Source: Armatimonas rosea (GTDB lineage: Bacteria; Armatimonadota; Armatimonadia; Armatimonadales; Armatimonadaceae). Taken from it: 64,000 bases of DNA. The position numbers and the translations under genes were made by a program. Shown here in pieces: positions 4,104 to 61,535 of this stretch. Under the pieces are notes generated by a model that saw only the letters and a program-made list of their open reading frames with translations, did no database searches and was not told where the DNA came from. The DNA lies in contig NZ_JACHGW010000003.1 of assembly GCF_014202505.1 (NCBI RefSeq), positions 682,001 through 746,000 of the forward strand, in the 5' to 3' direction. Each line of letters starts with the position of its first letter. Position 1 is the stretch's first letter.

Positions 4104-4133
4104 CCGGGCAATACATTACCCCGCAGAGAGGGG

Positions 4134-4196
4134 GAGCGTCCCGTGGACGCGCAGCGGCCAAGCGGCTCCTGCGTCCACGGGACGCTCTCTTTTTTG
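4134..4196 (+). terminator. Strong intrinsic terminator after the glycosyltransferase gene
   Basis: A 17-bp perfect stem (GAGCGTCCCGTGGACGC at 4134-4150 with its complement at 4171-4187) is followed by CTTTTTTG. It is the 3' half of a composite repeat that starts at 4104 (CCGGGCAATACATTACCCC). A second copy lies on the minus strand at 22305-22396. Confidence 0.92.
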
Positions 4197-4431
4197 TGCC
4201 GGGGATGTCACCCTCGGGCCTATTTTCCTGCGGAACTTTCTCCTTGACTTTCTTAACAATTACAGGCACACTGTGGGTGCGGAGGAAAGGTAACACTATT
4301 TGGCCTCTGCGGCATCGTCAACATAAACGGTTTCACTCCGTTTCTTAGCCTTTTGTTAATGGTTTGCCCCAGTGTGGGGGATAGACTCGTTGTGTGGGTG
4401 AACCCCACTCGTCAGCGGAGGTATGGATACA
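4197..4431 (+). promoter_or_regulatory. Structured leader region before the first pseudopilin gene
   Basis: This gene-free stretch (with 4104-4196, about 330 bp in all) contains a TTGACT at 4244-4249 that could be a -35 box. It is followed by several small inverted repeats: AAACGG..CCGTTT near 4326-4344, CCCC..GGGG around 4366-4379 and GTGGG..CCCAC near 4395-4410. A GGAGG ribosome-binding site lies at 4417-4421. The arrangement fits a long folded 5' UTR. No known riboswitch consensus was recognised. Confidence 0.4.
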
Positions 4432-5298
4432 ATGCAACGCATCAAGCGTGGTTTTACTCTTATTGAGCTCTTAGTCGTCATCGCGATCATCGCGATTCTC
4501 GCCGCAATTCTCTTTCCCGTCTTTGCCCAGGCTCGCGCCAAGGCACGCTCTATCGCCTGTCTCTCCAATGTCCGTCAGATTGGTACCGCTTTTGCGATGT
4601 ATGTCCAGGACTACGACGAGACAACCCCCTCGGGCCGCAGTGGTGGCTGGGAGTGGTGGGTCGAGCTGGTTCCCTACTTCAAGTCCCTTGACCTGATTCA
4701 CTGCCCCGACCGCAACGACCCCAACGTCCGCAACTACGGTGGTGCGTGTACCTCCGCGATCTACAGCCGCACCAAGCAGTCGGGCTACGGCTACAACTGG
4801 GGACCAATCAGCTACCGCGGTGGTGGGCTGATGGGACCGCGTACGGTTGAGGCCAACTGTGGTCAGCAGTACTTGGGGATGTCCCTCGCGGCAATCGACC
4901 TGCCGGCAGAGACCTTCGCCTTCGGCGACACCTACGACACCCCGCGCCAGACCATCGCGGTCTCCTTTGCGCTGGATGGCTACGGTGGCACGAGTAACGC
5001 GGGCTTCCGCCACACCCTGGGAATGTTCAACTACGCCTTTGTCGATGGCCATGCCAAGGCAATCAAGGTGCGTGGTGGCTTCATGGGCGGTGCTTTCAAC
5101 GGGAAGTTCATCATCCCTGCCAACCGCGATATCGCCCGCACAGCATTCTGCTCCAGCCAGACCGCAGTGATCTCTGCCAACGGCTTCGATGGGACGAACA
5201 TCCCGAACCTGCCCTGTAACCAGATCACGGACTGGATCTACGCCAACTACCCCGCCTGCCCGGCATCGGGTGGCTCGAACTGCTTCTGGTCGAACTAA
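4432..5298 (+). CDS. Type II secretion / type IV pilus-like pseudopilin (DUF1559-like)
   Basis: A 288-residue protein with a class III prepilin leader. The short basic MQRIKRG precedes [19 protein letters not shown], with cleavage after G and the conserved Glu at position 5 of the mature protein. The helix continues into [12 protein letters not shown], a hallmark of Armatimonadota pseudopilins, then QDYDE. The C-terminal half has the H-x-G/DG type ending [13 protein letters not shown] 4432 is preferred over the ATG at 4423 because the GGAGG at 4417-4421 is ten bases from the former and only one from the latter. It should be processed by the prepilin peptidase encoded at 26448-27800. A tiny lipoprotein follows. 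Confidence 0.93.
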
Positions 5299-11018: not shown

Positions 11019-12336
11019 GCGCTGATCCTTGGGCGAGATCTAGGGCGAGCCTTGCGGTACGCTCCGCTCCACCGGGCTCCCCGAGCTGGCTGCGGATTCC
11101 CTGGAGGCTGCGGCGCATGCGTGCCATGCGATCGGGGTCGAGGAGGAGATCGAGGATATGGGTGGCGATCGCCTCGGGAGTCGCGGCGTCTTGGAGGAGC
11201 TCGGGGCAGATCTCTTCCCCGGCGATCAGGTTGGGCATCCCCACAAAGCGCGGCAGGCTCTTGCGGACGAGGGCGATCTGGAGGGTATTGGCCTTGCTGA
11301 GCTTGTAGACAATCACCATCGGCTTGCCCAAGATCGCCGCCTCCAGAGTGGTGGTTCCCGACTTGCAGATCAGCGCATCACAGGCCGAGAGCATGTCGTA
11401 GGTGGCGTCTTCGAGGATCACAAAGGGCGGGATCACCGGGCTCTCGCTTCGGTGCGCCTGGGCCTGCTCGATCCACTCTTTTTGTCGCCGTGCCAGCTCC
11501 TCGACCGAGCCCTCTGCCAGGACGGGCTGGCGTCGGTTGGTCTCGTGCGACGGCTTGTGCGCGGGCCGGGGGGCGGTGTGGTGCTGGGTCGCGGCGCGGA
11601 TCGCGGCCTCGACCTGGGTGCGGTCCACGGTGGGGGCGAGGGCGATCATAAACTGCACGCCGGGGAGCCGCTGGGCGATCTGGAGCGCGGCGGCGAGCTG
11701 GGTGGGCAGGATGGCGTCTATCTCCTGACTACGGCTCCCCGGAAGCAGCCCGACCAGCGGCTTGTCGGTGTCGAGCCCGTATTTTTGCGCGAGCTCGGGG
11801 AGGGTGTGGGTGGGCTTCACCAGATCGAGCAGGGGATGTCCCACAAACTCGGCGCGCACCCCGAGGCGGTTGAGCTCGCTCGCGTTCCAGGGAAACGGCG
11901 AGGCGACCGCATCGACAAGCCCACTGAGCGGCGTGTACTTGAGGGTCTTGCGCCAGGAGCCGGGGGGGAAGTAGTAGAGAATCTTGGTCTGGGGGAGGTG
12001 CTTGCGCGCCCAGGGAACCAGGCCCTGGATTGGGCCAATCCCCAGGTGAAACGCACCCGCATCGATGGGGATGAGCACATCGGGCGGACGCCGCTTGAGC
12101 TCGGCGAGCAGGCGACGGCGCGCGGCGAGCATCTGCGGGAGCAGCTTCATGCCCGCGACCAGGCCAATCACCCCAAACGAGCTGGCATCAACAATGACCT
12201 CGGCGCCGGCTTCACGGAGCCACTTGCCGCCACTGCCGTAGAGCTCGACAGCCGGGTCTAGGCGGCGCAGCTCGTGGGCGAGCTGGCCGGCAACCCGGTC
12301 TCCCGAGGCCTCCGCGGCAGTGATGGCGACTCGCAT
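11011..12336 (-). CDS. lpxB: Lipid-A-disaccharide synthase LpxB
   Basis: A 441-residue GT19 enzyme that joins UDP-2,3-diacylglucosamine and lipid X to form the lipid A disaccharide at the inner membrane. It starts MRVAITAAEASGDRVAGQLA, the family N-terminal motif, and has SFGVIGLVAG and LLPGSRSQEI. The C-terminal donor-site block is DALICKSGTTTLEAAILGKPMVIVYK. It is about 60 residues longer than typical LpxB. The extra, charged segment lies at roughly residues 240-300 (HTAPRPAHKPSHETNRRQ and onward). It is the last gene of lpxC-fabZ-lpxA-lpxB, starting 3 nt after the lpxA stop. Confidence 0.96.
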   Translation of the reverse strand: MRVAITAAEASGDRVAGQLAHELRRLDPAVELYGSGGKWLREAGAEVIVDASSFGVIGLVAGMKLLPQMLAARRRLLAELKRRPPDVLIPIDAGAFHLGIGPIQGLVPWARKHLPQTKILYYFPPGSWRKTLKYTPLSGLVDAVASPFPWNASELNRLGVRAEFVGHPLLDLVKPTHTLPELAQKYGLDTDKPLVGLLPGSRSQEIDAILPTQLAAALQIAQRLPGVQFMIALAPTVDRTQVEAAIRAATQHHTAPRPAHKPSHETNRRQPVLAEGSVEELARRQKEWIEQAQAHRSESPVIPPFVILEDATYDMLSACDALICKSGTTTLEAAILGKPMVIVYKLSKANTLQIALVRKSLPRFVGMPNLIAGEEICPELLQDAATPEAIATHILDLLLDPDRMARMRRSLQGIRSQLGEPGGAERTARLALDLAQGSAPS

Positions 12337-14395: not shown

Positions 14396-14401
14396 ATGAT
14401 A
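14396..14401 (-). promoter_or_regulatory. TATCAT -10-like hexamer 7 nt before lpxC
   Basis: On the minus strand TATCAT-N7-ATG precedes lpxC within the 37-bp intergenic space shared with the divergent gene at 14426. No ribosome-binding site fits. A TACAAT on the plus strand at 14400-14405 could serve the divergent gene. Confidence 0.5.
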
Positions 14402-14425
14402 CAATATTCCCTAGCGAAATTTCCT

Positions 14426-14821
14426 ATGAGCCGCATCGTTCATCGTCAGCCTATCTGGACCTGGAGCCTTGTCTTCCTCTCCACCCTCCTGCTCACCCCG
14501 AGCACGGCGGCGGTGGTGCTGGCGGCGCTGCGTCAGGCCAATGTGGCGATGGTGCCAAGCGAGTCGGCGGTCTCTCCCCGGCGGGCGACCACCGAAGAGG
14601 AAGAGGCGATCAAGGCCGCCGCCCAGAGCGGGCGCCTGAAGGTCATTCGCCTAGAGCCCGCCTCCGAGCAGAACGCTCTGGCGATCCTCGCCCCAACCCG
14701 CGCCACGGTCGCGCTCCCGGAGCTCTGCGCTGCCCGGCAGCTCTATCCCACCCTCACAACCACCCTCCGTTCTGCGGAGCGACTCTCCTATGGCTCTCGT
14801 GCACCGCCGCACGCCGCTTAG
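14426..14821 (+). CDS. Small single-pass membrane protein of unknown function
   Basis: A 131-residue protein starting at the ATG at 14426 (an upstream in-frame ATG at 14396 would run into the lpxC promoter). An N-terminal hydrophobic segment, TWSLVFLSTLLLTPSTAAVV, follows a basic MSRIVHRQPI. This gives one membrane anchor or a signal peptide. The remainder (about 90 residues) is alanine- and glutamate-rich and has no recognised domain. Codon use is typical of the neighbouring genes (strong G/C third position), supporting a real gene. It is divergent from lpxC and ends just before the palindromic repeat that precedes secA. Confidence 0.62.
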   Translation: MSRIVHRQPIWTWSLVFLSTLLLTPSTAAVVLAALRQANVAMVPSESAVSPRRATTEEEEAIKAAAQSGRLKVIRLEPASEQNALAILAPTRATVALPELCAARQLYPTLTTTLRSAERLSYGSRAPPHAA

Positions 14822-14875
14822 AACTCTTCTTCGTTGATTGTGTCCCGGATGGTAAACGTCGGGCAACCTCGACGG

Positions 14876-14985
14876 TAAACGTCAGGCTATGGGGCCTTCG
14901 GCCGCCTCCTCGTCCCTCGTCGGTACAAGATTTATCCGAGCGAAGCGAGGCGGCGGAGGCACGACGCCCCATAGCCCCACGTTTA
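14876..14985. repeat. Palindromic intergenic repeat, family A copy 1
   Basis: GGCTATGGGGC at 14885-14895 is matched by its exact complement at 14966-14976. Outside these, TAAACGT (14876-14882) pairs with ACGTTTA (14979-14985). The interior shares CCTCGTCGGTA and the GGCGGAGG..ACGACGCCCC end with the copy at 60016-60136. It lies between the small membrane protein gene and secA. A separate small stem, CGTCG..CGACG, precedes it at about 14857-14874. The element could form a long hairpin. Confidence 0.8.
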
Positions 14986-15027
14986 TCGTGCGGGAACGTG
15001 AATTTAAGTGAGAACCACAGAATAACC

Positions 15028-22278: not shown

Positions 22279-22301
22279 GACGGGGATTGAAAATCCCCGT
22301 C
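22279..22301. repeat. Perfect 10-bp inverted repeat
   Basis: GACGGGGATT at 22279-22288 and AATCCCCGTC at 22292-22301 form a perfect stem with a GAA triloop, between the MFS start and the terminator at 22305-22364. A structural or protein-binding role is possible. No T tract follows on either strand, although TCAGGAAAAAAG follows on the plus strand. Confidence 0.6.
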
Positions 22302-22304
22302 TCA

Positions 22305-22396
22305 GGAAAAAAGAAGCGTCCCGAGGACGCGAAAGGAGTTTGTTTCGGTGCGTCCTCGGGACGCCTCTGCTGGCTGCCGGGTAATTTATTGCCCGA
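22305..22396 (-). terminator. Composite terminator repeat, family B copy 2 (minus strand)
   Basis: Read on the minus strand it is CGGGCAATAAATTACCCGG, a short spacer, then GCGTCCCGAGGACGC (22350-22364) and its complement (22316-22330), followed by TTCTTTTTTCC. It has the same order and nearly the same sequence as the plus-strand element at 4104-4196. The stem differs by a compensated T-A to A-T pair. It faces away from the pseudopilin gene at 22705-23418 but lies beyond the small plus-strand gene. Confidence 0.8.
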
Positions 22397-22708: not shown

Positions 22709-23418
22709 CCGGGACAGTTCGTGTGCCAGGGAGTGCGTGCGGGATTGGGTAGCGGGATGGGGTAGCGCCGCATCAGATCCACGCCCGACCAGGGGAGGCC
22801 ACACGGGTCTTTCAGGAGAGAGCCGCGGCTCATCCACTTGGCGTGTCCATCAAAGAAGGCGGCATTGACTCCGCCTTGGTGGCGTGTCATGGCAAGTACC
22901 GGCTCGCCAAAGCCCGGCTTGTCGTAGAGGTTTTTGGGAGGCTCGAACCAGGAGTCGTCGAACTGTGCGTTTTTCTCGGTGACGACGATAATCTCTGCGG
23001 GGGTATCGACTGCTGCTAACGTGAGCGACTCCGCGGCGCGGTTGGCGACATACGAGCGGGGCTTGTTGTCCGTGGAGTTGGGGGTCTTCTTGGGATCGTC
23101 GGGGCAGTACAGCAGGCTCGGTGCCGATGTCGTGTAGGGCAGGATCTGGTTCCACCAGCGATTTGTAGCGAGTGCACCGAGAGGGGCCGACGGGTTGGAG
23201 CGGGAGTAGTCGACATTGTGCCCAAAGAAGAAAAGCATCTCATCGTAGTCTTGGGCGTACATCGAGAGCCCAATTCCAAGCTGGCGCATGTTGGAGAGGC
23301 AGTTAACCTGCCGCGCTTTTGCACGTGCTTGGGCAAAGACCGGGAAGAGAATGGCGGCGAGAATGGCGATTATCGCGATGACGACTAGAAGCTCGATGAG
23401 GGTAAAGGCGCGTCTCAT
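22705..23418 (-). CDS. Type II secretion / type IV pilus-like pseudopilin (DUF1559-like)
   Basis: A 237-residue paralogue of the protein at 4432-5298. It has the leader MRRA, then [40 protein letters not shown] and QDYDEM. It ends with the conserved [12 protein letters not shown] motif. The ATG at 23418 is used because a longer frame would give an overlong leader. Six bases upstream is TATGAT and there is no Shine-Dalgarno sequence. It lies 34 nt after the alpha/beta hydrolase gene on the same strand. It should be cleaved and N-methylated by the prepilin peptidase at 26448-27800. Confidence 0.92.
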
Positions 23419-23424
23419 GAGGCA

Positions 23425-46929: not shown

Positions 46930-47127
46930 ATTCGGGCGGCATTTCGGGTTCGGGCGGCTAAAGCAGCCCGCTGGTGCGGCAAGACCCATAAATGGGCCTC
47001 CAAAACTAATATGACCCCCTTCGCCCCTCGGAACGCGGCGGGTACCCTCTGGGTGTGGCGAAGGGGGTCGGCGGTGGTGCCGCCGGGGGGATGTACCGCC
47101 GGGGGGATGTCCGGGGGATGTCCTACC
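46930..47127. repeat. Repeat-rich intergenic region
   Basis: A perfect 13-bp inverted repeat, GACCCCCTTCGCC at 47013-47025 with its complement at 47057-47069, is followed by tandem units ending in GGGGGATGT at 47081-47095, 47096-47110 and 47111-47121. Before it are two TTCGGGCGGC repeats (46932-46960 region) and the palindrome CCCATAAATGGG. It separates convergent genes and may act as a bidirectional terminator. No gene is seen in it. Confidence 0.7.
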
Positions 47128-56982: not shown

Positions 56983-57192
56983 GAGTGTCCCTTAGTATAC
57001 AGCCAACCCTCTAGCCCGGAAAGGGACACGCCTACTCCCTCACTATGGCCGGAAGGCCTTTGTGTCCGAGGCACGAGGACAGCAAGACGCCCCGGTTCAT
57101 CGGGGCGAGACGCCCCCCTCCAACGGGGGCGATCCAAATGGGGTGGATTTATTGGGCAGGATTTACCAGGGAAGGCGTCGAACGGATTCCCG
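56983..57192. repeat. Divergent intergenic region with tandem hairpins
   Basis: Two adjacent 7-bp stem-loops, CGCCCCG..CGGGGCG (57088-57107) and CGCCCCC..GGGGGCG (57111-57131), each follow the bases GA. They are preceded by GAGGCACGAGGACAGC, which resembles an end of the family A repeat (14876-14985, 60016-60136). No ORF with plausible coding use is seen. The region should hold the promoters of the rhomboid gene (TATACT at 56994-56999, minus) and of the ASCH gene. Confidence 0.55.
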
Positions 57193-57564: not shown

Positions 57565-59994
57565 ATGCTCTTTCCCGTGATCCCCGCCCTTGTGGCGACC
57601 CTCGCACAGCCCGAGGCCCCGAAAGCCAACTGGAAGCTCGCCAGCCGCTTTACCGCCGAGAGCCTCCTGCCCTTCACGCCCAGCACAACCCTCACGCCCG
57701 GCTGGATCAACAAGACCGACACGTTCTGGTACACCTGGCGCGACGATTCCGGGCGCAAGTTTTGGAAGGTTGAGCCCAAGGCGAAGAAGAAGACCCCGCT
57801 CTTCGACTCCGCCAAGATGGCCGCTCTCCTCTCGGAGCTGACCCAGAAGCCCTACGACTCGACCAACCTGCCCTTCACGACCGTGACATTCGATGAAAAA
57901 GACGCCAACCGGATGTTCTTCACGATTGTCGAGGTTCCTACCGCCCCTGTGACACCGCCTGCCGCGCCGAAAACAACGCGCTATGAGTACGACCTGACCA
58001 AGGAGACGCTCAAGGTCGCGCCGAAGGAGGGGACAGCAGCAGCGGAGACCGAGGCGCGGGACTTCCGCAACTGGTCGCCAGATAAGAAAGCCTTTGTCTA
58101 CGCCATGGCGCACAATCTCTACTATGTGGAGGTGGTCGATGGCAAGGAGCAGCCGCCGATCCAGCTGACCAAAGACGGCGAGAAGGACTACAGCTTCGGG
58201 AGCCGCGACGGTGGCTTCGGAGGCGGGGTCTTTGGCGGCGGCGGGACCCGGCGGCGCGGGCAGCAGGGCACGGGCGGGGGCACGACTCCGCCGCCTGTGG
58301 TCGAGCAGCGCGTGCGCGCGGGGGTGACCTGGTCCAAGGACTCCAAGCGCTTCTTTGTCAGCCGCTTCGACTCGCGCGATGTCAAGGAGCTCTTTCTGGT
58401 CAACTCGCTCACCGAGCCGCGACCATCGCTGCTGAGCTACAAGTACGCCATGCCCGGCGAGCCCGGTGTCGGGCACCAGGAGCTCTTTGCCTTCAATCCC
58501 GCCAGCAAGACCCTGGAGAAGCTCCCGATCGAGAAGTACAAGGACCAGCAGGTGCGCAATGTCCACTTCCAGGACGCTGTCTCGACTGCTCTGCGCTTTG
58601 TCCGCCGCGACCGGCTCCAGCGCCACGCGGAGCTTTGCGAGATCAACCTCGATACCAAGGTCGTCACCCCGATGGTCGCGGAGTCTGTGGAGAATGCGTT
58701 TCTGGAGCTACAAGAGGTTAAGTATGTCAAGCCCGGCGGGGACTTTCTCTGGTTCTCCGAGCGCTCCGGCTGGGGGCACTACTATCGCTACAGCAACGAC
58801 GGCAAGCTCAAGAACGCGGTGACCAGCGGCCCGTTTCGCGCGTCGCAGATCACCGAGGTCGATGACAAGAAAGAGCAGCTCTGGTTTGTGGGCCAGGGCC
58901 GCGAGACAGGGGAGAACCCCTACTACCAGCATCTCTACCGAGTCGGGCTAGATGGTAGCGGCTTGGTGCTCGCCGACTCCACCGAGGCCGATCATACGTC
59001 GAGCCTCTCGCCGAGCAAGGACTTTGTGGTCGATGTCTACTCCCGTACCGATCTGGCGCCCAAGGCCGTGCTACGCGACCGCGATGGCAAGGTGCTCCTG
59101 GATCTGGAAGAGAGCAAGCTCGGCCGGCTACTGGAGCTGGGCTGGCGCTTCCCCGAGCGCTTCACGGTCAAGGCCGCCGATGGGGTGAACGACCTCTACG
59201 GGAATATGTGGCGCCCGACGGACTTCGACCCCAAGAAGAAGTACCCGATTATCGCCTATGTCTATCCCGGTCCCCAGACCGAGTCGGTGAACTCGGGCTT
59301 TACGGTGAGCGCCAACAACGCCCGGCTGGCCCAGCTTGGCTTTATCGTGATCCAGATCGGCAACCGGGGCGGCAACCCGGCACGTTCGAATGCCTACCAT
59401 AGTTTTGGCTACTACAACCTGCGCGACTACGGCCTCGCCGATAAGAAGACGGGAATCGAGCAGCTGGCGGCACGCTACCCGTGGATCGATATCGATAAGG
59501 TCGGCATCTTTGGTCACTCCGGCGGCGGCTTCATGACGGGGGCGGCGCTTCTCCTGCCGCCCTACAATGAGTTCTTCAAGGTGGGGGTTAGCAGTGCGGG
59601 CAACCACGACAACAATATCTACAACGCCAACTGGAGCGAGCAACACCACGGTCTCAAGGAGGTTCCCGTCTTGGATAAAGACGGCAAGCCCACGGGCGAG
59701 ACCAAGTTTGAGATCAAGGTTCCGACCAACGCGGAGCTTGCGGGCAATCTCAAGGGCAAGCTGCTTCTGGTCCACGGCGACATGGACAACAATGTCCACC
59801 CTGGTGGGACGATCCGGCTGGTGAACGCCCTCATCCGCGCCGGAAAGCGCTTCGACTTTATGATCCTGCCTGGTCAGGACCATAGCTTCGGGGACATGAT
59901 GCCCTACTTCAACCAACTCACCCTGGAGTACTTCGCCGAGCACCTGCTAGGCGACTACCAGCGCAGCGGGGCGGAGCTAAAGGTCAAGCAGTAG
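57565..59994 (+). CDS. S9 family (dipeptidyl-peptidase IV-like) serine peptidase
   Basis: An 809-residue peptidase. A short hydrophobic N-terminus (LFPVIPALVATLA) may be a signal peptide. An eight-bladed propeller region (about 30-560) carries a low-complexity Gly/Arg loop near residue 215-230 and blade motifs such as DFLWFSERSGWGHYYRYS. The catalytic alpha/beta hydrolase domain begins near 540 (YPIIAYVYPGPQTESV). It has the nucleophile in VGIFGHSGGGFMT, the Asp in LLVHGDMDNNVHP and the His in LPGQDHSFGDM. This is the DPP4/DAP family arrangement, removing dipeptides from proline-containing peptides. Confidence 0.94.
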   Translation: MLFPVIPALVATLAQPEAPKANWKLASRFTAESLLPFTPSTTLTPGWINKTDTFWYTWRDDSGRKFWKVEPKAKKKTPLFDSAKMAALLSELTQKPYDSTNLPFTTVTFDEKDANRMFFTIVEVPTAPVTPPAAPKTTRYEYDLTKETLKVAPKEGTAAAETEARDFRNWSPDKKAFVYAMAHNLYYVEVVDGKEQPPIQLTKDGEKDYSFGSRDGGFGGGVFGGGGTRRRGQQGTGGGTTPPPVVEQRVRAGVTWSKDSKRFFVSRFDSRDVKELFLVNSLTEPRPSLLSYKYAMPGEPGVGHQELFAFNPASKTLEKLPIEKYKDQQVRNVHFQDAVSTALRFVRRDRLQRHAELCEINLDTKVVTPMVAESVENAFLELQEVKYVKPGGDFLWFSERSGWGHYYRYSNDGKLKNAVTSGPFRASQITEVDDKKEQLWFVGQGRETGENPYYQHLYRVGLDGSGLVLADSTEADHTSSLSPSKDFVVDVYSRTDLAPKAVLRDRDGKVLLDLEESKLGRLLELGWRFPERFTVKAADGVNDLYGNMWRPTDFDPKKKYPIIAYVYPGPQTESVNSGFTVSANNARLAQLGFIVIQIGNRGGNPARSNAYHSFGYYNLRDYGLADKKTGIEQLAARYPWIDIDKVGIFGHSGGGFMTGAALLLPPYNEFFKVGVSSAGNHDNNIYNANWSEQHHGLKEVPVLDKDGKPTGETKFEIKVPTNAELAGNLKGKLLLVHGDMDNNVHPGGTIRLVNALIRAGKRFDFMILPGQDHSFGDMMPYFNQLTLEYFAEHLLGDYQRSGAELKVKQ

Positions 59995-60015
59995 TTTCTG
60001 CCCCGCGCCCATAGC

Positions 60016-60136
60016 CCGGACGGAGATCGTCCGGGCTATGGGGCGCTTCGCGCCTCCTCCTCGTGCCTCGTCGGTAGAAATCCGCCGAAGGCGCGGCGGA
60101 GGAACGACGCCCCATAGCCCGACGATCTCCGTCCGG
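60016..60136. repeat. Palindromic intergenic repeat, family A copy 2
   Basis: CCGGACGGAGATCGTC (60016-60031) and its complement (60121-60136) form the outer arms. GGCTATGGGGC (60034-60044) and its complement (60109-60119) form the inner arms. A third partial arm, CCCATAGCCC, lies at 60008-60017. The interior shares GCCTCCTC, GTGCCTCGTCGGTA and ACGACGCCCC with the copy at 14876-14985. It fills the gap between two convergent genes. Confidence 0.85.
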
Positions 60137-60143
60137 GGCCGAA

Positions 60144-61535
60144 TTAAGCCAGCAACAACCCCGGCGTCTCCAGCAGCTCTTTGACTCGTGCCAGAAACGC
60201 CGCGGCGGGGGCACCGTCGAGGGCGCGGTGGTCGAAGCTGAGGGAGAGGCCCATCATGGGGCGCACGGCGGGCTGGCCGTTGACCGCCACAATCGTGTCG
60301 GTGATGGCGCAGACCCCGAGAATCGCCACTTGTGGCGGGGGAATGATCGGGTTAAACGACTGGACCCCGTAGTTGCCCAGGTTGGTGATCGTGAACGTCC
60401 CCCCAGTTACTTCATCGCTCGCCAGCTTCATGGCCCGTGCGCGTGCGGCCAGATCGACACGATCCTTGGCGAGCTGGGTGAGGCCCTTGCTCTGGACATC
60501 CTTGATGACGGGGACGATCAAGCCATCGTCGCCGAGGGAGACCGCCAGCCCAATATGTGCGGCATCGAAGAGGGTGAGCGTGTCGCCGCTGATGTGGGCA
60601 TTGACCATCGGGTGCTCTTTCAGCGCATGGCCGCACGCCTTGACAATGAGATCCGTGGGGGAGATGCGGACGTTGTCGGACTTCTCGATGGCGGGCAGGA
60701 GCTGCTTGCGGAGCTTGTTGGCCTCGGTCATGTCCACGGAGAGGTTGAGCGTGACATGCGGCTTCTCCCGTACGGACTTGCTGAGGTTGTCGGCGACCCG
60801 CTTGCGGAGCCCAGCCAACGGCACGGTCCGTGCTCCCACACTCGTGGGGGCGGGGGGGGCAACGGGCACAGCCGCCGCCCGGACATCGTCGGCGGTGATG
60901 CGCCCGCCCGCGCCGCTGCCCGCGACCTCGGTGAGGTTGACGCCCTCACCCGTTGCGATGGCTTGTGCGAGGGGAGAGACACGGAGCCCCCCGGCCCCCG
61001 CAAGCGAGGGAGTGAGGAGGGCTTCTGCCTGCGTGGCGGCGGCGGTCAGTGCGGCATGGGCGGCCTCGACATCGCGCTCGATGATGCGCCCCCCCGGGCC
61101 GGTGCCTTTCCCGGCGAGGTCGCGGATGCTCACCCCAAGCTCATCGGCGATCCGGCGGGCACGCGGCGAGGCATCCAGCTGGCCCCCCCCGCCCCCAAGA
61201 ATGGGGGAGCTTGTGGGGGCCACAGCGGGCGTGGGCGCAGGGGCCACGACGGCAGGAGTGCTGGCTTCTTCACTTGTGGGGGCAGGGGGGGCTTCCCCCG
61301 GCTCCCCGACCAAGACAACCGGGGACTCTACCTTGACATAGGAATCGACCGGGGCGAGAAAGCCCAGGACCACACCGGCCTCGGTGCTGGCGAACTCCAT
61401 GTTGGTCTTGTCCGTCTCCAGCTCGCCCAGTGCCTCCCCGATCGCGACCGTGTCGCCGATCTTCTTGAACCACTGCACGATACGAACTTCCTCAACCGAC
61501 TGTCCCAGAACGGGCACCTTTACTGTCCTAGCCAT
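60144..61535 (-). CDS. Dihydrolipoyl acyltransferase (E2 of a 2-oxoacid dehydrogenase) with two subunit-binding domains
   Basis: A 463-residue E2 protein. The lipoyl domain (1-80) has the lipoylated Lys43 in ELETDKTNMEF. After a Pro/Ala linker come two peripheral-subunit-binding domains, at about 121-156 (SPRARRIADELGVSIRDLAG) and about 185-220 (SPLAQAIATGEGVNLTEVAG). Each ends in the GRI-x(2,3)-DV motif. The catalytic acyltransferase domain ends with the His and Asp motif SFDHRALDGAPAAAFL. It is most likely the pyruvate or branched-chain dehydrogenase E2. E1 and E3 are not in the window. GAGGAAAC precedes the ATG. Confidence 0.94.
   Translation of the reverse strand: MARTVKVPVLGQSVEEVRIVQWFKKIGDTVAIGEALGELETDKTNMEFASTEAGVVLGFLAPVDSYVKVESPVVLVGEPGEAPPAPTSEEASTPAVVAPAPTPAVAPTSSPILGGGGGQLDASPRARRIADELGVSIRDLAGKGTGPGGRIIERDVEAAHAALTAAATQAEALLTPSLAGAGGLRVSPLAQAIATGEGVNLTEVAGSGAGGRITADDVRAAAVPVAPPAPTSVGARTVPLAGLRKRVADNLSKSVREKPHVTLNLSVDMTEANKLRKQLLPAIEKSDNVRISPTDLIVKACGHALKEHPMVNAHISGDTLTLFDAAHIGLAVSLGDDGLIVPVIKDVQSKGLTQLAKDRVDLAARARAMKLASDEVTGGTFTITNLGNYGVQSFNPIIPPPQVAILGVCAITDTIVAVNGQPAVRPMMGLSLSFDHRALDGAPAAAFLARVKELLETPGLLLA

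Follow-up and report, generated by a model that had tools for sequence, protein, structure and literature searches.

Family A, a hairpin-ended repeat with two copies in the 64,000-nucleotide stretch of DNA analysed here (the window, contig positions 682001-746000), is likely to be a non-autonomous palindromic mobile element of ~120-150 bp that resembles REPINs and TIRtrons and is moved by a Y1 (HUH) single-strand transposase. The observations behind this reading are dispersal through the genome, empty orthologous sites, local hairpin covariation with constrained loops, exchange of modules between copies, a damaged Y1 gene flanked by family A sequence, and direct repeats around some of the copies.

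Copies and distribution of family A

The original prediction of two related elements near 14876 and 60016 was borne out, as both are present and each carries GGCTATGGGGC/GCCCCATAGCC inverted ends. The elements are real but slightly longer than the ~110-120 bp first given (Table 1). The proposed search of the whole genome (6.33 Mb, 98% complete, Armatimonadota) recovered many further copies. More specifically, blastn with copy 1 returned 40 places, with a best non-self E of 1.5e-40, and a covariance model built from 30 copies located ~71 dispersed places, truncated halves included, after its 136 matches (both strands, E<=0.01) had been merged by hand. This recurrence is far beyond chance. Left-only and right-only halves both occur among the copies.

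Family A matches were also found in six regions of the sister species G001, while the family was absent from 59 other genomes searched from the same family, order and phylum. A scan of GTDB r220 with the core pattern gave no match outside the genome.

Architecture of the element

The two ends of family A are inverted copies of each other, each with a small bulged hairpin (hp1). Read inward, a clamp GCC (or GCG) comes first, then a single unpaired base and a stem of 4-5 bp; after the loop, which is GTAAA, GAAAT, GAGAT, GTGAA or ATAAA, come the complementary stem strand and a clamp GGC (or CGC). Inward of the hp1 clamp follow TATGGGGC and then a second hairpin with a TTCG-type loop, and the centre holds CCTCCTCGTNCCTCGTCGGTA, which is highly conserved, then a variable linker rich in A+T, and the right half. 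Several modules are exchanged among the copies, namely GGCCTTCGGCC for GGCGCTTCGCGCC, GGCGGAGGCACGACGCC for GGCGACTTGCTCGCC or GGCGCGAAGCGCC, and TATGGGG for CACCCAGAGGGTACCCGGG, and the exchanged modules occur in many left-right combinations.

Both window copies are intergenic, the extragenic position having been checked for these two only. Their GGCTATGGGGC/GCCCCATAGCC pairs lie at 14885-14895/14966-14976 (copy 1) and 60034-60044/60109-60119 (copy 2), and an upstream CCCATAGCC remnant lengthens the stem of the left end hairpin of copy 2 to 15 bp (60008-60042). An unpaired GTAG/CGTC tag was not found at the foot of hp1, where the adjoining bases are of the AGCC/CATA type inward and variable outward.

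Some copies show further peculiarities. At L034, L039, L215, and L229, the GTCGGTACAAG block in the centre is duplicated internally, which suggests slippage or template switching within the element. An isolated GCGGGTACCCTCTGGGTGTGGC hairpin at 46985-47115 of the window matches the ACCCAGAGGGTACCC module of some family A copies. The possibility that the small hairpins form an independent abundant repeat was rejected, as eight of nine such hairpins in a 464-kb sample proved to be family A.

Table 1 Positions of the two family A copies and their parts within the window
Feature	Position	Strand	Remarks
Family A copy 1, between ORF 14396-14821 and secA (start ~15029)	14868..14994	+	model R1 match 14857-15007, 153.5 bits; site empty in G001
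Left end hairpin hp1 of copy 1, GACG-GTAAA-CGTC	14871..14883	+	local stem covariation
Conserved inward motif GGCTATGGGGC, copy 1	14885..14895	+	
Second hairpin hp2 of copy 1, GGC-CTTCG-GCC	14893..14903	+	other copies have GGCGCTTCGCGCC and others instead
Most conserved block CCTCCTCGTNCCTCGTCGGTA, copy 1	14905..14925	+	invariant alignment columns
Variable A+T-rich linker joining left and right halves, copy 1	14926..14935	+	
Right half of copy 1, CCGAGCGAAGCGAGGCGGCGGAGGCACGACGCCCCATAGCC, exchangeable hairpin modules	14936..14976	+	
Right end hairpin hp1 of copy 1, CACG-TTTAT-CGTG	14978..14990	+	
Family A copy 2, between convergent ORFs 57565-59994 (+) and 60144-61535 (-)	~60018..60134	+	model match 60005-60150, 123.1 bits
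Left end hairpin of copy 2, GGACG-GAGAT-CGTCC	60018..60032	+	
Right end hairpin of copy 2, GACG-ATCTC-CGTC	60121..60133	+	

Pairing and covariation

As had been proposed, each of the two window copies has a left outer arm that is complementary to its right one, and single-strand folding pairs the two in a helix that dominates the predicted fold. The z-scores of the two folds are -4.8 and -7.8, and no shuffle folds as well. The further claim that this pairing is maintained failed once many copies were compared. Left/right identity is 10.63/15, against 10.94 +- 0.30 when arms are re-paired (30 copies, both ends read), and pairing across copies amounts to 74.9%, against 77.3% in shuffled controls. 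Long-range outer-arm pairing was consequently rejected on re-pairing, on shuffling, and on held-out copies. The inner GGCTATGGGGC/GCCCCATAGCC stem shows no covariation (87.0% versus 87.1% shuffled).

Covariation is nevertheless real; it resides in the local hairpin at each end and not between the outer arms. The end hairpins are paired at 93.3% versus 77.8% in shuffled controls, with a covariation score of 0.355 versus 0.106 (0/500 shuffles). Stem pair 4 of hp1 is Watson-Crick in 82/82 ends, as GC in 57 and CG in 25, while shuffling gives 47 +- 4 with a maximum of 62, and the clamp covaries across the 1-nt bulge, GCC/GGC also occurring as GCG/CGC. In held-out copies, found by a model that itself includes the end hairpins, pair 4 is kept in 39/43 (versus 30.7) and pair 5 in 37/43 (versus 22.2). 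When read on the complementary strand, 51 of the 82 hp1 loops are of the TTNA type.

A structured RNA, or an intergenic regulatory or terminator element under selection for pairing, would fit the strong folding and the intergenic position of both window copies. However, no Rfam family matched, the long inner stem does not covary, and the copies, ~70 in one species with none found outside the genus, stand in unrelated contexts and are absent at three orthologous sites. This alternative, of which the structured RNA was also named in the original prediction, thus appears very improbable.

Empty sites and target repeats

The mobility of family A is supported by empty sites and by direct target repeats. 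Three orthologous sites are empty in G001. The region upstream of secA has the same neighbours there and no family A element, and the L046 locus has neither the family A copy nor the Y1 gene. At the L011 site, the 21-bp GCACAAACGCCGCCGCGAGCC is single in G001, with one small difference, and doubled here, where it flanks the element. For the copies at 60016, L006, and L022, searches for the orthologous site gave no clean synteny on both sides.

The flanks of 42 copies were compared, and their longest exact match in direct orientation has a mean of 7.69, versus 6.67 +- 0.16 in permuted flanks (permutation 0/20000). Direct repeats of at least 12 bp surround 5 of these 42 copies (L011, L022, L006, L007, and L025), compared to 0.06% of mis-paired flanks, and measure 12, 13, 15, 17, and 21-22 bp. 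Sixteen further, lower-scoring copies had no direct repeats, so that the target-site duplications for which a test had been proposed occur in 5/58 copies examined and are missing from the others. One of the five, L011, is confirmed by its single-copy empty site in G001. The flanks of L007 have a longer imperfect repeat of ~36-40 bp in common, as judged by eye. Three copies looked by eye as if they had an inverted extension in the flanking DNA, but this did not exceed the control. Dispersal, the three empty sites, and the target repeats in a subset together support the non-autonomous mobile palindrome that had been suggested.

A MITE of the DDE type, descended from an ordinary insertion sequence, would share the short inverted GGCTATGGGGC motif at both ends and the target repeats in some copies. 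Such an origin is highly unlikely for family A, as the target repeats range from 12 to 22 bp with no fixed length, the ends are covarying hairpins, and a non-systematic look met no DDE element with family A ends.

Y1 transposase genes

The genome has seven Y1_Tnp genes, six of them with complete domains in which DHVH (the HUH motif) and Y..QK are conserved and a single catalytic tyrosine is present. The REP-associated (RAYT) transposase for which a test had been proposed was found in part: associated Y1 genes are present, but by NCBIfam they are of the IS200 type and not RAYT. Six score 66-74 bits with the IS200 model (cut-off 55) and 25-36 bits with REP_Tyr_transpos (cut-off 80); the L046 gene reaches 38 bits with the former and has no match to the latter. 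A PDB comparison of one complete Y1 protein gave IS608 and further TnpA structures as matches, and the nearest named relatives of the Y1 transposases come from Armatimonadota metagenome assemblies. All seven genes are enclosed by long inverted repeats; those around the six complete genes are different from gene to gene, and several of these repeats are also dispersed families in the genome, including in the window.

On its upstream side, the Y1 gene at L046 is separated by ~110 bp from a complete family A copy, and the right half of family A follows immediately downstream. By our own arithmetic, the chance that 71 randomly placed copies would closely flank both sides of one of seven genes is of the order of 1e-4. 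The gene carries an in-frame internal deletion after the HUH motif. Because this sole family-A-flanked Y1 gene has lost ~40 residues, no intact dedicated family A enzyme was found, which counts against the Y1 explanation.

A TTATCAG..GTTATAGGGG leader upstream of the L046 gene was considered as part of the Y1 element and rejected. Since a like sequence stands at the empty site in G001, the leader looks like a native promoter; the complete copy may therefore have inserted separately from the Y1 gene and its half copy. A promoter-like motif, ~TTRTCAGATT-N(about 15)-CCGTTATAGGGG, is common to Y1 genes and an unrelated recQ-like gene (G001:C56 ~11255-11343; L046 1420-1480; the right flank of L028; upstream of the L040-L045 Y1 genes), and may be a promoter shared within the genus, one whose spacing is unusually long.

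In a set of 88 related Y1 loci from many phyla, the inverted repeats at the flanks of 53 surpass the 99th percentile of mismatched controls. The repeats at these loci consist of hairpins, with TGAA/TAAA (or TTCA/TTTA) prominent among their loops, and hairpins with TRAA/TTYA loops occur at 2.16 per kb close to related Y1 genes versus 0.25 per kb further away (~nine times). At four Chloroflexota Y1 loci (L122, L154, L109, and L116), two hairpin types alternate in arrays beside the Y1 genes, repeated several times, and look as if the hairpins had been amplified in tandem.

Relation to known systems

Family A is probably a REP/TIRtron-like non-autonomous element, and thus of a general type already described. 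What is new is family A itself, its modular hairpin ends with fixed loops, and the target repeats in a subset; in the open literature searched we found no description of such elements in Armatimonadota, and a literature search found no report of target repeats for Y1-linked repeats.

With REPs, REPINs, and their RAYTs, family A shares the inverted hairpin pair, the extragenic position, moderate abundance, and covarying stems (Nunvar 2010 PMC2817692; Bertels and Rainey 2011 PMC3116915), as well as the presumed movement in trans by a Y1 enzyme. Complementary changes in REP stems were already known (PMC2817692). In contrast to these systems, family A has no GTAG or CGTC tag and is larger and modular, and the Y1 proteins here fall below the REP-associated model cut-off. 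TIRtrons (TIRYT) are Y1 genes enclosed by long inverted repeats, copies of which also occur dispersed (Di Nocera et al. 2013, PMC3733652), and their subclass 2.1 has a C-terminal helix-turn-helix extension (PMC6006769). The genome's other Y1 genes resemble them in having long, partly self-complementary flanking inverted repeats that differ by gene and are in some cases dispersed. Here, however, the arms consist of small hairpins in series whose loops are conserved and whose stems vary, the Y1 proteins are of the IS200 kind and short, the Y1 gene of family A (L046, with family A sequence on both sides) is damaged, and some family A copies have direct target repeats of 12-22 bp. Elements of the IS200/IS605 type (IS608, ISDra2) are similar in their Y1 HUH enzymes, given the matches to IS200 models and IS608/TnpA PDB structures, and in the bulged hairpins at the ends, but differ from family A, whose two ends are inverted copies of each other and whose target repeats span 12-22 bp in 5/58 copies.

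Proposed mechanism

A Y1 transposase would bind hp1 on exposed single-stranded DNA, recognizing it through its loop and paired stem and not through the stem sequence, and would cut near the foot of the hairpin. The folded element would then be joined or copied into a new site as single-stranded DNA. We infer that an intact Y1 relative acts in trans, the family's own gene now being deleted, and that the direct repeats would arise from repair or re-priming at insertion, for example at a gapped fork. The Marinomonas TnpAREP needs a T-T-N-A loop and an unbroken stem, and tolerates stem swaps with moderate effect (PMC8266576). This loop and stem rule matches the family A ends, which is why we propose that the end hairpins are where a Y1 enzyme binds family A.

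Several findings count against the Y1 explanation, including the missing GTAG/CGTC tag, the ~38% of family A ends that carry GAAAT/GAGAT loops and not TRAA, the sixteen lower-scoring copies that lack direct repeats, and the possible separate insertion of the two family A sequences at L046. The variable-length direct target repeats speak against a Y1 enzyme of the IS200/IS605 type, and are left unexplained by such transposition because it makes no larger target duplications (PMC2817692).

The main rival is another insertion machinery, for example template switching of the hairpin strand at a replication fork or target-primed copying of the element's RNA, with the Y1 neighbour being incidental. 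Staggered or re-primed synthesis would give direct repeats of variable length, as in the series from 12 to 21-22 bp, of which IS200-type elements leave none, and the swapping or loss of modules and whole halves among copies fits as well. Nevertheless, like hairpin-chain ends surround Y1 genes both in the genus and in related phyla, one Y1 gene (L046) sits between family A sequences, and there is neither a poly-A tail nor a one-sided truncation bias as in target-primed elements. We consider this rival unlikely in comparison with movement by a Y1 transposase. A more novel but doubtful reading is that the Y1-associated hairpin elements of the clade insert by a copy-in route that leaves target duplications of 12-22 bp (perhaps ~40 bp), unlike any IS200/REP transposition described so far, and that the enzymes recognize hairpins by a code in which the loops are fixed and the stems can be exchanged freely. 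With such a code, whole hairpins could therefore be swapped between elements.

The genus lends itself to a study of how Y1 enzymes spread REP-like repeats. It has several Y1 genes, each accompanied by hairpin repeats of its own, its sister species provides empty sites, and some insertions appear recent and still have their target repeats, so that the insertion step is directly testable. Furthermore, the constancy of the loops and the variability of the stems at the ends agree with the loop recognition that has been measured for one TnpAREP, and suggest that this mode of recognition may be widespread.

Other repeats in the window

Besides family A, the window contains repeats related to other Y1 genes. 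A copy of a different palindromic family, one flanking the Y1 gene L041 (GGCCGGAAGGCCTTTGTGTCCGAGGCACGAGGACAGCAAGACGCCCC), lies at 57045-57138, and long hairpins (GAGCGTCCCGTGGACGC... and GGGGATTGAAAATCCCC...) at 4129-4210 and 22281-22364 are related to the inverted repeats of the Y1 gene L040. Two 108-nt stretches at 4440-4547 and 23312-23419, inside or overlapping ORFs, are 80% mutually complementary and are probably parts of paralogous genes on opposite strands.
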